64,000 nt of DNA from Rhizophlyctis rosea (Eukaryota > Chytridiomycota > Chytridiomycetes > Rhizophlyctidales > Rhizophlyctidaceae): the NCBI GenBank assembly GCA_027596075.1, contig JADGJC010000008.1:193170-257169 (forward strand), written 5' to 3'. Of this stretch, positions 5,420 through 62,023 are shown piece after piece (the first letter of the stretch is position 1; every line of letters begins with the position of its first letter). The translations under genes and the position numbers were made by a program. The notes beneath the pieces are model-generated. The model was not told the origin of the DNA. It saw only the letters and a program-made list of their open reading frames with translations, and did not search any database.

Positions 5420-6916
5420 ATGGGACAACGGCCCCCACCATCGAGGGCATCGAGAGCTCCGAAGGCTCCTTCTCGCATTTTACCTCCTCGTCGTGGCACA
5501 AACAGGCCAGGTGCATTACCAGCAGATGCACCAGACCATCGTCACGACCAGCCACAACCGCCGCCCTCTGCAGCTCAGCAACGTGTCCGCCGTCCAACAA
5601 CGTCTTTCACACAACTCCCACCAGAACTCCTCGTCCACGTCTTCAGCGTTATGCCAGTCCCCTCGGTCTTGACCTGCGAGCGCGTTTGCAAACAATGGAG
5701 CGTACTCATCCATGTCGGATTCGTCGACCCAGGTTGGAAGCCCAAGCTCGTTGCCTCATATCCGGAAGGTTGCGTCCCGGTGCGTCGTGGAAGCGAGAAT
5801 GACCGAGATCTTGCTTTAGTGTCATATGCATGGGCAAAAAAGTGGGAGCCGAAGATGGTTGATGGGAAAGTTGAAGATATTGATGATAGCAATTATTTCG
5901 AGAGAGAGGGAAAAGGCTTTGTAAGGGATTTGACGAACTGCTTCGATTTCAAAGGTCAGAATAGTAGCTATCTCCTCGGAACCTTCGAAAACGGAGTATA
6001 CATCTGTGTGACCGACCCGTATCGCGATCCGGCCGAAGTGTGGGTAAAGGAAGCCTTAGACGGCTCATGAGGTTGTGTCTCAATCGACCTTCCTTACCTT
6101 GAAGAGGAGACCGATCTTCACTTCAACTACATGAATTTCTCTCCATACTACGTGCGCGCCAACGCCGTTGCTTCAGAATGCGAAGGCACCACCACCAAAA
6201 TCTACGACTTCGAAACCGGTGACTTCCTCACCGAGTGCCAACGCATCCCGAACATCCAAACGACAGTCTGCGGAGATCACATCATCCAACATGACGACCA
6301 AACCCACGTCGTACACATCTCTTCCCTCGTCAACCCTTCGTTACAATACAAACTGGAGCAATGCTTCTCACCATGTTTCAACGAAACCATCCTGGCACAT
6401 AGCACCTCCTCCCAACTTGAAACCATTTACCTCCTCCGTCTGAGCAACCAAAAACGGTTCAGCGCTTACGAAGTTGAAGACGACATTGACACAATCAAAA
6501 TCAGCAGATTCAACCTCTTCCTCTATCGCGCGGACCGCCAACACGGCATTAACCACATCGATGTTCTCAACTTCAACTGCGAACATCTTTACACCATCAC
6601 TGCTCCCTACTCTTGGACCAGCGACGAATGTCTGTGCGATCGTGAGATTGTGACTGTGAAACTGAGAATGGTCACGTATGTGGTGCTGGATTCAATCGAG
6701 GGGACTTGTAGCACGCTGACTGTGCCAAAGCCTGAAGGAGAGGAAGATGATAGCGAAAGAGATGACAAATGGAGTGATCAGGCTCGGTCCGATCGGTATT
6801 TAGACAGTTTGAGCGAGGGGTATAGTTTTACGATCATGGAATATCCTACGGATGACGAGGGAAATCGGACGGGAGCGCGTGGGGTGATGAAGTGTTGTAG
6901 GCGGTGGACGAAGTAA
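5420..6916 (+). pseudogene. F-box paralogue 2, interrupted by an in-frame TGA
   Basis: ATG at 5420 opens a Pro/Arg-rich extension of about 60 residues not present in the neighbours. The F-box follows (FTQLPPELLVHVFSVMPVPS, then CERVCKQWS), then the shared domain (SYAWAKKWEPK, DLTNCFDFKG). The ORF stops at TGA 6068-6070, yet the same frame continues immediately (GCVSIDLPYLEEETDL...NFSPYYVRANAV) to a natural stop at 6914-6916, colinear with the intact copy. A CGA-to-TGA transition would explain it. No intron removes the stop without deleting conserved residues. Either a pseudogene or, less likely, a gene producing an F-box-only short protein of about 216 aa. Confidence 0.75.
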
Positions 6917-7737: not shown

Positions 7738-9066
7738 ATGTTGTCCATCACACAAATTCCCCCAGAACTTCTCGCCCACGTCTTCAACCAAATGTCGATC
7801 CCTACACTCCTCACCTGCGAACGCGTCTGCAAGCACTGGAGTGTCTTTCTCCGCATCACGTCCGTTGAGCTAGTTTGGAGGCCCAAGCTTGTCGCTACGT
7901 ACCCGGATGGTTGCATACCGGTGCTTCGAGGACACGAAAACTGCAGGGATGTTGCGCTGGTGTCGTATGCGTGGGGGAGGCCGTGGGAGCCAAAATGGGC
8001 TGACGGGATAGTTGAAGAGATTGAACCCGGTCAGCAGCTTGAAAGGAGGGCAACGCACGTTGTGAGAGACCTGACGAACTGCTTCGATTTCAAAAGTCGG
8101 AATCGTAGCTACCCCCTTGGTTCCTTTGAAAGCGGGGAATTCCTCTGGGTGATCGAGCCAGATGATGACACAGTCCAAAACAGGGCCGAAGTAGTGGTAG
8201 ACAAACTGTTCAAGGACGCGGACGATTGTATCCATCTCAACCTCGAATTCCTCAAACGAGAATACGACTTCAGGTACTTCAATTTCTCACCATACTACAT
8301 ACGCACACACGCCGTCGCCTCCAGTTGCAAAGGGTCCACTTACACACTTCAACACCTCAAATCCGGTGCCCTCCTCGCCGAGTTCGAACGCATCCCAAAC
8401 TACAAAATGATCATCTGCGGAGACTACATAATCCAACACAGCGTCCCAGCCGCCATCACATACGTATCTTCTCTCCGAAACCCTTCCCTAAACTACAACC
8501 TCCAACCATGCTACCGACCATGTCTAAACGAAACCCTCCTAGCATACACCACCCACTCCTTCAACGACACATCCATCAACCTTCTCCGTCTGCGCGACCA
8601 GAAACAACTCGCCACATACAAAATACACCGCAACGTCAACTCATTCAAAATCAACAGATTCAACCTCTTCGTGTTCTCTTCAGATAGTCAACAGGTCCCC
8701 AACTCTATCGAGATATTCAACTTCCACGGAGAGAATCTGTACAGTATCAAAGCTCCTTCCGCGTTTCTGAGGAGTGGGGCCTGCCCCTGGGACCGTGAGA
8801 TTCTTTGGATCAAGATGGAAGGGAGTGCGTATACGGTATTGGATCCGATTGAGGGGACGTGCCGGACGATGGTGATTAAAATTCCTGAGGAAGAATGTGA
8901 TGAGGAGAGTGTTGCGAGACCGAGGTTGGGACGTGGCGCTGCGGGGAATCAAGATGATTTGAGGGAAGGGTATAGTTTTACAATGATGGAATATCCAACG
9001 GATGACGAGGGAAAGCGGACGGGAGCGCGTGGGGTGATGAAGTGTTGTAGGCGGTGGAGGAAGTAA
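7738..9066 (+). CDS. F-box protein, intact member of the array
   Basis: Uninterrupted ORF of 442 aa from ATG 7738. The F-box at residues 4-40 (QIPPELLAHVFNQM...TCERVCKHWS) predicts Skp1 binding in an SCF E3 ligase. The rest is a domain of about 380 residues that I can recognise only from the two paralogues: SYAWGRPWEPKW, NFSPYYIRTHAVAS, RLRDQKQLATY, FNFHGENLYSI, TVLDPIEGTCRTM and EYPTDDEGKRTGARGVMKC. Its layout, short strands with recurring hydrophobic/aromatic blocks, would fit a beta-propeller-like substrate-binding region, but that is inference. It is the only one of the three tandem copies with a full reading frame, so presumably the functional one. Confidence 0.85.
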   Translation: MLSITQIPPELLAHVFNQMSIPTLLTCERVCKHWSVFLRITSVELVWRPKLVATYPDGCIPVLRGHENCRDVALVSYAWGRPWEPKWADGIVEEIEPGQQLERRATHVVRDLTNCFDFKSRNRSYPLGSFESGEFLWVIEPDDDTVQNRAEVVVDKLFKDADDCIHLNLEFLKREYDFRYFNFSPYYIRTHAVASSCKGSTYTLQHLKSGALLAEFERIPNYKMIICGDYIIQHSVPAAITYVSSLRNPSLNYNLQPCYRPCLNETLLAYTTHSFNDTSINLLRLRDQKQLATYKIHRNVNSFKINRFNLFVFSSDSQQVPNSIEIFNFHGENLYSIKAPSAFLRSGACPWDREILWIKMEGSAYTVLDPIEGTCRTMVIKIPEEECDEESVARPRLGRGAAGNQDDLREGYSFTMMEYPTDDEGKRTGARGVMKCCRRWRK

Positions 9067-48019: not shown

Positions 48020-49046
48020 ATGGTCCGAAATAAGCAGACCGCACGGAAATCAATAGGCGGTAAGGAAGCATTGTTGATGTCTGAATGCCGATGACGTTTT
48101 GATCAGGGAACGCTTGTGTACAGGCAAGGCCCCCATAAAACAACTGGCTGTACGAGCTGCACTACGAGTTCCACCTCCGGCCGGGCTCTTCTCGTTCCTT
48201 AACCCTCTTATGCGTCTTCCCACGGAACTTCGCATCGACATCATGGATCAAGTGAGAGACTACTTGTTGTCTTGCGCAAGCACTACCGGCGGAACAGGCA
48301 ACTTGCTGGCCATCTTGCTGGCCGACAGGTTCTTCAACACGTGTTGCCAGAGCATCCTAGGGGACGTTGAAACAGCTCAAGCGCAGTTTGTCGAGGAGAG
48401 ATTGAAGTTAGTATCAGGATCATATTGACCTTGCTTCACCGGTGCATGTATAGCTGATTTTTGTAATCCCATCGCTCAGAACCCTGAAGCCGACTATCAG
48501 CAACAACAATACCACACCCACCGTTATCAACTTCCCAGCAGACCTCGAATACTACCTCCTCCCACAATTGCGCATCCTCGAAAACCCAGCGTTCGATGTT
48601 GGACCACACCTGCGTCATATCTACAATGCGTGCAACCAGCAACACCAATTACATGTTCAAACCGCCTTTCGTCTGTTTCCCCACCTGGAGTTTAGCAAGC
48701 ACAACCACCTACCATCATGTCAAGTCGCTTGGGCGACGCTATTTCGCGGGAAGCTTGGGACGAAGAGATGGATGGAGACAAGGGGAATCTTGAGTGGGAA
48801 GGGGAAAGGGAGGCCGCAAAATCATGGAGCGTGCAGGAACCTCTCAGGCGTTCACGCTTTATGAGGGTGTTGCGGAACCCACGTGTGTGCGTCGATCAGG
48901 ATCATGTTATTGGTGGATTGGGTCTCAGTGCAGACGAGATTGAGAGTACAAGTTGGGATTGGGCATTTGTGAGTGGGTTTGATGGGCGCATTCATTTGGG
49001 GAAGAGGAATGGTGAGGGGGTGGTTGGGCGTTATTTGGCGTTGTGA
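48020..49046 (+). CDS. Chimeric protein: histone H3 N-terminal tail fused to an F-box-like domain
   Basis: Exons 48020-48059, 48124-48406, 48480-48654, 48696-49046; 282 aa. The first residues, MVRNKQTARKSIGG|KAPIKQ then LAVRAALRVPPPAG, align without gaps to the H3 tail ([20 protein letters not shown]...). K4, K9, S10, K14 and K18 are kept; T3 is N, K23 is R and K27 is R. The first intron (48060-48123, donor GTAAGG) falls between the GG and K14 codons, a position I recall as common for introns in fungal H3 genes. The H3 globular domain is absent; instead LMRLPTELRIDIMDQVRDYL ... LADRFFNTCCQSIL reads as an F-box-like domain. The C-terminal part (LEYYLLPQLRILENPAF; SADEIESTSWDWAFVSGFDG) is unknown. 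The third intron has a weak GTTCAA donor; without it the protein ends at 48864. A nuclear reader-decoy or chromatin-linked SCF role is speculation. Confidence 0.7.
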
Positions 49047-59900: not shown

Positions 59901-62023
59901 ATGTCCTCCTCTACTGAACAGGCATCAGGCACGCCAGACCTCCCTCCGCTTATCGTTGCGGAAAAAATGACGGGGACCAGCGATGCAGCTCCGTCCGCAG
60001 CTCCCATCACAGCATCACCTGGCGAAGCAATCTCCTCAATCGACAAGGAATGCAAGTCTGAACCGACGGCTACGGAGGAAGCGTTGAACACTCCGCCCTA
60101 CCCGACGGACCTTCTCCGCCAGGCAACCATCCATGCCGTGCTCAGGTCGCGCGAGGAGCAGGGTGGGAGGCCGACTGGAGAGCTGGTTGACCTTTGGGAG
60201 GGAGTTACGATTGAAGAGGTATGTTTGTTTGTCGCATGCTACCTGGTCCGTTCGGTGGGGAGCAAAGCCCAATGGTCTGAGGACAGCAGTATTCCCTGAC
60301 TATATACATCCAACTACCAGGCCTTGGACACACTCGCAAAGCACCACATCAGCGCTGTCCCTGTCTACAAGAAGAGCGAAGACGGGACGCAGAAGACGCA
60401 TTATGCGGTGGTGGGTGTGGAAGAGTTGTTGGATTATGCTGTTTTCCAGGTAAGCCTTGTTGATCAACCCAATCGAGGGCTGTTTGGCCATGCGGGGTGA
60501 GATGTTAAATGCCATTCATACACTGAATAACAGCATATCTTCGACAAAACCGACTTCACGTGTTGTACGCCCGAAGACCCCAACACCCAACTCAGCGAAT
60601 CTGAAAAAGAGAAATGCATCGCCTCGATGCGTGGCAAAGAAGACTACTTCAAGGTGAATACTCTCTGGATTTCACGTCTCCCACGTCACTCTTACTTAAC
60701 CACCATTTCCTCCCATTAGCACACCCTCCAAACTCTCCTCGCAACCAGCGCTCCCTCCGAAGCCTTCACCACATACACTCCGACGACGCCGCTTATCAAC
60801 GTCGTCACGCTCTTCAGTAGCGGGATTCAGAGGGCGTTCGTGGCGGGCAAGGGGGGCGCGGAGGGAACCGATGTTGAGAGTGTGATTACGCAGGGGGATT
60901 TGGTGAGGTTCTTGTGGGAGCAGTGTGGGGAGATGGGAGGCGTCTATGAGAAGGGTGTTGAAGGGGTTGATGAGGGTGCTTTGGAGAAGGTATGTATGGA
61001 TCACCGTTGATATGTGTTTGGGTTGTGCAAGTGTTGATGTTTGTTGACTCTTGTAGGTCATTGAAGAGCAGGACGTCGGCAAGCTTCCGGAACCGGTTGG
61101 GGACCATCATGTGAAGTAAGTGGTCACTACGTCTCCAACTTATTCTCCGCCCTACGTGTGAGGCATTCTTTATGACGCTACATTCATTTCTCTCATACAG
61201 GTACGCACTCAAACTCCCAACCACAACCCCACTCCTCACCCTCTACCGAACCCTCACCCACTACCACACCCGCTCCATTGCCCTCTACGACCCGACGGAC
61301 CCAAGCCACCACATTACCACAACCGTCTCCCTCACCGACTTCCTCTCCACCCGCCCTGAAACCCTCGCGGACCTCGTGCGCTTGACTGGCGGCGAACTGG
61401 TCACGAAACAAGAAGAGAAGAAGGGGTTGCGGGCGAAAGCAAAGGCTTTGGTCGTTAAGGCAGGGGAGAAGGTTGGGAACGTCATGAGGAGGTTCGTGGA
61501 GGGAGGGAAGAATGTGGCGAAAGAAGAGGAAGAGAGGGATGAAGGACCCACGGGCATTGGTACTCGCGGTGTGTGGATCGTCTCCACCACTACCATCACA
61601 GACGACGACAACAACACCGTCGAAGAAGAACACCTCATCAGGAAGATCACCTACACCGAACTTCTCTCATACTGCATCCCCACGCACGATGACTCCTCCA
61701 CTGCCAGCATCAAATCTGTTCCTGCTGAAAAACCCAGCATGGCAACTCGCGCGGAGGCGATGATGAAGGAGGGCGAGACGAGGGCTATGGAGGGTTTCAC
61801 GAAGCTTGTGGAGGGGGCGAGCAAGCTTAGTGTGCAGGCTAGTGAGGGGTTGGGGAGGATGATGGAGGGTGTTTTTGGAGCTGTGACTGGGAAGAAGTCT
61901 GGTGGTGAGGCGGGAGTGGGACAGAGGGAGGAGGAGGGAGTGAAGCCAGAAGAGGGGATGATTGAGGACGACGTGGTTCCGCAGCCGGCGGAGCCGCGTG
62001 AGGCGGAGAAAATGTGGTTGTAG
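59901..62023 (+). CDS. CBS-domain protein
   Basis: Exons 59901-60218, 60321-60450, 60534-60653, about 60720-60989, 61057-61115, 61201-62023. I start at ATG 59901 (MSSSTEQASGTPDLPPLIVA) because the earlier ATG 59769 lies in a probable leader intron. CBS-type motifs: ALDTLAKHHISAVPVYKKSE (helix then GAVPV-like strand), THYAVVGVEELLDYAVF, then TTPLINVVTLFSSGIQRAFV with VITQGDLVRFLWEQ, and TTPLLTLYRTLTHYHTRSIA with TVSLTDFLS. That is two CBS pairs, as in adenine-nucleotide-sensing proteins such as AMPK gamma-like relatives. The C-terminal 200 residues add amphipathic Lys/Ala-rich helices (AKALVVKAGEKVGNVMRRFV; EGFTKLVEGASKLSVQASEG). Ligand and partner are unknown. Confidence 0.78.

Follow-up and report, generated by a model that had tools for sequence, protein, structure and literature searches.

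A putative chimera of a histone H3 gene start and an F-box-like protein in the chytrid Rhizophlyctis rosea

The gene that begins at position 48020 of the window (the whole stretch of 64,000 nucleotides analyzed here, G000:C613:193170-257169, from the 44.1 Mb, 634-contig assembly of Rhizophlyctis rosea, Chytridiomycota) is, as read from its sequence, a real chimera in which the start of a histone H3 gene is joined to a non-histone, F-box-like protein. We consider it about an even call that a duplicated H3 5′ end gave this F-box-like protein a tail that selection kept as a mimic of the K9, K14, and K18 sites, and that the present copy is truncated or decaying. A bolder reading, which we hold only as a tentative possibility, is that of a working gene, in which the duplicated, intron-bearing H3 5′ end sits on a ligase-adaptor-like protein, the selected K9/K14/K18 mimic lets histone enzymes control or place a non-histone protein, and tail-only H3 genes have been made more than once (C238, with remains in C17).

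The gene runs on the plus strand. Exon 1 (48020-48059) opens with the ATG at 48020 and encodes the H3-derived codons 1-12 (MVRNKQTARKSIG) and the first base of Gly13, an assignment based on the sequence, a codon alignment with three H3 genes, and the chance test given below. Intron 1 (48060-48123; GTAAGG...ACAG, 64 nt) is predicted to be spliced in phase 1 inside the Gly13 codon (G|GC), and not between the GG and K14 codons, where the earlier note had placed it; reading through it meets a stop codon. The first part of exon 2 (48124-48200) supplies the rest of Gly13, K14-A25 of the H3-like tail (KAPIKQLAVRAA, 48126-48161), and a short linker, and the second part (48201-48406) encodes the F-box-like domain (NPLMRLPTELRIDIMDQV...VEERLK) common to paralogs in the same genome. 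Intron 2 (48407-48479; GTTAGT...CTCAG, 73 nt), whose splicing is likewise predicted, has the place and phase of the intron in the paralog HDV00_002516. Exon 3, in the frame as it stands (48480-48864), carries paralog homology to about PHLEFS (near 48696), followed by a frameshifted tail with its stop at 48862-48864; the conserved C-terminal part of the family (48696-49046; RVLRNPRVCV...WDWAFVSG) lies in a different frame. The predicted product in the frame as it stands has 235 aa, comprising the tail, the F-box-like domain, the first part of the C-terminal region, and the frameshifted end. This gene model is supported by the match in place and phase of intron 2 with the C65 paralog, for which our hand model is identical to the NCBI protein HDV00_002516. 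Among protein records of 63-411 aa, none was found to match the chimera gene.

Spliced together, exons 48020-48059 and 48124-48406 encode MVRNKQTARKSIGGKAPIKQLAVRAA, followed by sequence of non-histone type. The spliced start MVRNKQTARKSIGGKAPIKQLAVRAALRVPPPAG aligns with H3 gap-free, with 20 of 26 positions identical over Met plus residues 1-25 and 22 of 35 over Met plus residues 1-34. The gap-free alignment over 33 residues proposed in the earlier note is strong to residue 25 only, residues 26-34 agreeing with H3 at 2 of 9 positions, and the H3 breakpoint may lie anywhere within residues 25-34. The tail peptide VRNKQTARKSIGGKAPIKQLAVRAA keeps K4, K9, S10, K14, and K18, and the alignment bears out the presence of these residues and the replacements K23R and K27R as first described. 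Residues 1-25 hold six changes in the codon alignment (A1V, T3N, T11I, R17I, T22V, K23R), all of which fall outside three intact blocks, K4-S10 (KQTARKS), G12-P16 (GGKAP), and K18-A21 (KQLA).

Over Met plus residues 1-25 the BLOSUM62 score against H3 is 95, compared with a mean of -6 and a maximum of 41 in 100,000 shuffles (z ~10), which excludes chance resemblance, and the first 29 residues of the tail, searched against PDB sequences, return histone H3 entries (best E = 3.8e-7). It is thus extremely improbable that the gene is an artefact, whether of chance resemblance or of two unrelated transcription units read as one: although a possible internal ATG at 48210 in exon 2, just 5′ of the F-box-like motif, lies near the start of some paralogs, K14-A25 share their exon and reading frame with the F-box-like domain, and constraint is detected in codons 14-25 on their own (p=0.011, see below). 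Sites resembling GKAPxKQL number 11 genome-wide (three in the H3 genes read, two in C17, one in C238, one in the chimera, and four in non-H3 contexts), and the reversed pattern, used as a control, has 4 sites in the genome. The view that no histone fold follows the tail is upheld: PF00125 has no match within the window and 23 in the genome, and the sole match on the contig of the chimera lies outside the window at 60267-60476. A Pfam scan of the chimera found 0 families, and with no histone fold the protein is not classed as a histone.

Three H3 genes with both tail and core were read here (C46, C502, and C312), and other H3-type genes with different codons are possible. A comparison of intron positions with the H3 genes of the same genome, proposed in the earlier note, finds the phase 1 intron of Gly13 in the chimera, C46, and C502, and not in C312. 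Because the position and phase of intron 1 match in two of three H3 genes, exon 1 of the chimera can be traced to an H3 gene, and the intron position and phase common to the chimera and H3 genes rule out a convergent short motif. The earlier supposition that an H3 5′ end had been duplicated into this gene agrees with the intron 1 match, with the tail not being seen at seven of eight paralog places, and with the other core-less copies described below; a DNA-level duplication of the 5′ end of an H3 gene is, from this structure, well supported as the probable source of the tail. The second H3 intron, in the codon for A21, is present in all three H3 genes and absent from the chimera, which would reflect either later intron loss or a donor without intron 2. 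We propose that part of an H3 gene with introns was duplicated, so that codons 1 to ~25-34, along with intron 1, came to lie before a member of the F-box-like family, an arrangement that can be read directly from the DNA with the exception of the direction of the event. Capture of an H3 promoter was also considered and rejected, as the 1 kb upstream and intron 1, compared with five H3-bearing loci by short-word BLAST (E up to 1), gave a sole match of 13 bases (E 0.26).

Other pieces of H3 genes occur elsewhere in the assembly. C238 (L041, ~4592-4160, minus strand) is a second candidate H3-tail chimera with an intact H3 start; it encodes residues 1-36 with intron 2, breaks exactly at the intron-3 position of the C46 and C502 H3 genes, and continues as GRSIAESLENISSEDEEELGGNFQ and further acidic sequence, this non-histone continuation having no other match in the genome at E<=10. 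In C17 (L032, 1501-1900, plus strand), an H3 tail segment is repeated in tandem as two decayed copies, which include the intron-2 donor, lack a start codon, and precede a coiled-coil-like open frame. Over 44 bases the first of these is identical to C238, and C17 and C238 may share an origin. Neither is the source of the chimera as it stands, because both are without intron 1. Partial duplication of H3 5′ ends has thus occurred at least twice in the R. rosea genome, and what is unexpected about the chimera is less its origin than the constraint on its tail. At C620 (L025, 1380-1805, minus strand), an internal stretch of 14 residues close to H3 residues 2-12 follows KSPVV/KSPAA repeats in a lysine-rich open frame, and is possibly a convergent mimic because it is not N-terminal. 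In a search for tail-only H3 chimeras, the 120 proteins listed of 4838 all carry PF00125, a result that neither shows nor excludes such chimeras.

Selection on the tail was estimated with a branch codon model (equal codon frequencies, one tree) on an alignment of the chimera, C46, C502, C312, and C238. On the chimera branch, codons 1-25 give an omega of ~0.05 and omega=1 is rejected (LR 27.8, p=1.3e-7), an estimate that comes from 25 codons of a single lineage on a branch near saturation (9 neutral substitutions per codon). Under the same model, constraint is detected in codons 1-13 alone (p=4e-5) and in codons 14-25 alone (p=0.011), and omega=1 is not rejected for codons 26-34 (p=0.37). In codons 1-25, 8 of 50 first and second positions of the chimera match none of the three H3 genes, compared with 16 of 25 third positions (Fisher p=5e-5). 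When neutral evolution was simulated until third positions had diverged as far as observed (18 of 25), at least 19 of 25 residues stayed identical in 0 of 5000 runs under each of 6 settings. Codons 1-25 therefore seem to have been under purifying selection, and it is apparently past selection that kept the tail.

The chimera branch so tested includes any time that the sequence spent as an H3 gene before the fusion, and part of the constraint may predate it. Taken to its end, this would mean that the synonymous divergence accrued in a full H3 variant under histone constraint, that the fusion is recent, and that, within the chimera, the tail serves no selected function; in that case the six replacements in codons 1-25 might be both recent and neutral, and the missing H3 intron 2 indicates a donor not identical to any of the three H3 genes read. 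We regard this as unlikely, given that the first and second positions at which the chimera departs from the three H3 genes number 8 of 50 in codons 1-25 and 9 of 18 in codons 26-34 (p=0.009), with the proviso that codons 26-34 are maybe not H3-derived. The GC3 of the tail (11/25) is also below that of codons 1-25 in the H3 genes (14, 19, and 20 of 25), a weak hint, with the lowest H3 gene close by, that much of the divergence arose after the sequence left a highly expressed histone role. The rest of the chimera has a higher GC3 (52/81 for the rest of exon 2 and 43/70 for exon 3), and the tail has therefore not just taken on the composition of its new gene.

We therefore favor an account in which the tail was maintained by selection as a histone mimic even as its codons diverged, where the constraint on amino acids is observed and its timing relative to the fusion is presumed. 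The tail is rich in lysine and arginine, and an NLS-like use would keep lysines too, but we think it improbable that the tail serves only as a basic disordered N-terminus for nuclear localisation or DNA contact, rather than as a modified and read H3 mimic, when the uncharged residues Q5, T6, A7, S10, G12, G13, A15, P16, Q19, L20, and A21 are also kept, beyond what a simple basic patch needs.

Paralogs of exons 2 and 3 are found at eight places in the genome: C427, C609, C236, C65, C3 (three places), and C223; two weak extra places, C534 (E 0.12) and C201 (E 0.16), were left out of this count. No H3 tail was seen upstream of seven of the eight (420 bases 5′ of the match, read in three frames and inspected by eye), the eighth, C223, has lost its 5′ part, and pattern searches for KQTARKS and GKAPxKQL gave no match in any of the eight places. 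C223 (L043, 3789-4277) is the closest paralog of the C-terminal part of the chimera (61.5% identity over 52 residues) and lies, 5′-truncated, beside antisense open frames. Beyond this genome, the family profile found only the R. rosea protein among 6345 candidates at E<=1, and a protein search with a 114-aa piece of the chimera found no ortholog.

The description of the second part of the chimera as F-box-like, also made in the earlier note, is retained tentatively. The paralog at C3:100967 scores 22.7 bits against PF12937, short of the 24.3 cut-off, and that at C3:122048 scores 13.9 bits; two of six family members match PF12937 weakly (best 8.3e-5, below cut-off), and a Pfam scan found nothing in the chimera, C65, or C609. 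An hhalign comparison of six family members with 11 of 12 F-box-like domains of the same genome (one dropped for a stop in its flank) gives a probability of 86% over 20 columns, covering the first helix (LPxELxxxIFxY) only. In an AlphaFold2 model of exon 2 built from an eight-row alignment, the block-mean pLDDT is 82-92 from residue 31 and 57-64 before it; a fold search with this model gave no clear structural match, and the lack of an F-box among the matches listed excludes nothing. With 150 of 379 candidates scored, PF12937 has at least 148 matches genome-wide, and two ordinary F-box-like (PF12937) matches lie in the window at 5609-5710 and 7750-7848. Skp1 matches are present at C79, C451, C148, and C246. 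The SCF-type ligase put forward in the earlier note is a conjecture, given that the F-box signal is limited to the first helix.

The earlier note had missed a frameshift in exon 3, where, after PHLEFS, the C-terminal motif of the family (RVLRNPRV..., WDWAFVSG) runs on in another frame (48696-49046). The joining stretch is net one base shorter in the chimera than in the paralog C223, and C223, C609, and C65 read through the site without a frame change or intron. Between 48560 and 48900, 39 GT-AG combinations keep an open frame; among the 25 listed, none has a donor of the GTAAG, GTGAG, or GTATG type, and the shortest candidate introns are GTTCAA (41 nt), GTCGCT (44 nt), and GTTTCC (50 nt). Because no donor is convincing and three family members run through the site without an intron, a frameshift is preferred to an intron. 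Either the chimera copy is without the family C-terminus or there is an assembly error at this site, and what the gene encodes at present is either a truncated protein or one that is being lost. This frameshift makes the present function of the chimera doubtful.

Three relatives are also damaged: C427 contains an in-frame TAG, the reading frame of C236 is broken within the F-box-like part, and C223 has lost its 5′ part. C65 and C609 read intact. The family thus looks to be in birth-and-death, judged from these copies, and the chimera may be following. The broken state of these members, together with the one-base difference from C223 and the C-terminal homology in another frame, is what would be seen if the chimera had once been functional and is now a pseudogene in this strain, its C-terminus removed by the loss of one base in exon 3 and its tail a fossil of past selection. 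We consider this possible, if somewhat doubtful, as exons 1 and 2, the splice sites of both introns, and approximately the first third of exon 3 are intact, the truncated product could still bear the tail and the F-box-like domain, and a single-base assembly error or a heterozygous allele could account for the difference.

HP1 chromodomains bind the QTARKS stretch, which H3K9 methyltransferases also use, and GKxP is the Gcn5 motif. H3K4 readers of the PHD type require Ala1, and readers of a free Ala1 would be weakened by A1V. Mimicry of K9, K14, and K18 fits the tail better than mimicry of K4, because residues 1, 3, and 17 have changed and the K9, K14, and K18 motifs are intact. The suggestion in the earlier note that H3K4 and H3K9 enzymes could modify or read the tail is accordingly narrowed: a role at K4 is less likely, as A1 and T3 have changed, and the intact motifs leave K9, along with K14 and K18, as plausible targets. 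With modifiable residues and recognition motifs retained under selection, the tail is a candidate histone mimic, judged from a single lineage. R. rosea also encodes a chromodomain match (C551:50847-50963) adjoining a Pre-SET match (C551:51073-51372), which we take to be the arrangement of Clr4/Suv39 enzymes.

In the use of the tail that we consider likeliest, the exposed N-terminus of the chimera would be methylated at its K9-like site and acetylated at its K14- and K18-like sites by the H3 enzymes of the cell. The modified tail might then be bound by H3K9me readers (HP1/Clr4-type) or by acetyl-lysine readers, and this binding could anchor the F-box-like protein at certain chromatin, or its activity could become subject to histone-modifying enzymes. 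The retained tail thus hints at a non-histone protein that uses the chemical-mark code of H3, and the chimera suggests a route by which new proteins may be wired into chromatin signaling in one duplication step. If functional, the chimera would show, as a natural experiment, what writers and readers require of the H3 tail when no nucleosome is present, and its kept blocks and tolerated changes would be a ready-made test of H3K9, K14, and K18 recognition.

Neither an H3-tail/F-box fusion nor a tail-only H3 chimera was found described in the portion of the open-licence PMC full-text literature that was searched. Compared with known systems, the chimera shares with the HDV00_002516 (P0001) family the F-box-like part, intron 2, and the C-terminal motif; no H3 tail was seen in the other family members examined, and the chimera is frameshifted. 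With F-box and F-box-like domains (PF00646, PF12937), the chimera family appears to have the LPxELxxxIF helix in common; the rest of the chimera domain diverges. The chimera shares with histone H3 the match over residues 0-25 (20/26), the blocks KQTARKS, GGKAP, and KQLA, and the position and phase of intron 1 (two genes); unlike histone H3, it is without a histone fold, carries six replacements, and is not clearly H3 past residue 25. Histone mimicry in cellular proteins usually takes the form of short linear motifs, while the mimic in the chimera is a histone gene fragment, intron included, attached to an unrelated protein. Mimicry of the H3K9 type is represented by short linear motifs in G9a/GLP targets such as WIZ and LIG1 (PMC10611923). 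Like these mimics, the chimera is a non-histone protein with an H3K9-like ARKS motif, potentially usable by H3K9 methyltransferases or HP1; unlike the short motifs described there for WIZ and LIG1, its N-terminus would consist of ~25 residues of real H3 tail together with an H3 intron, gained by gene duplication.
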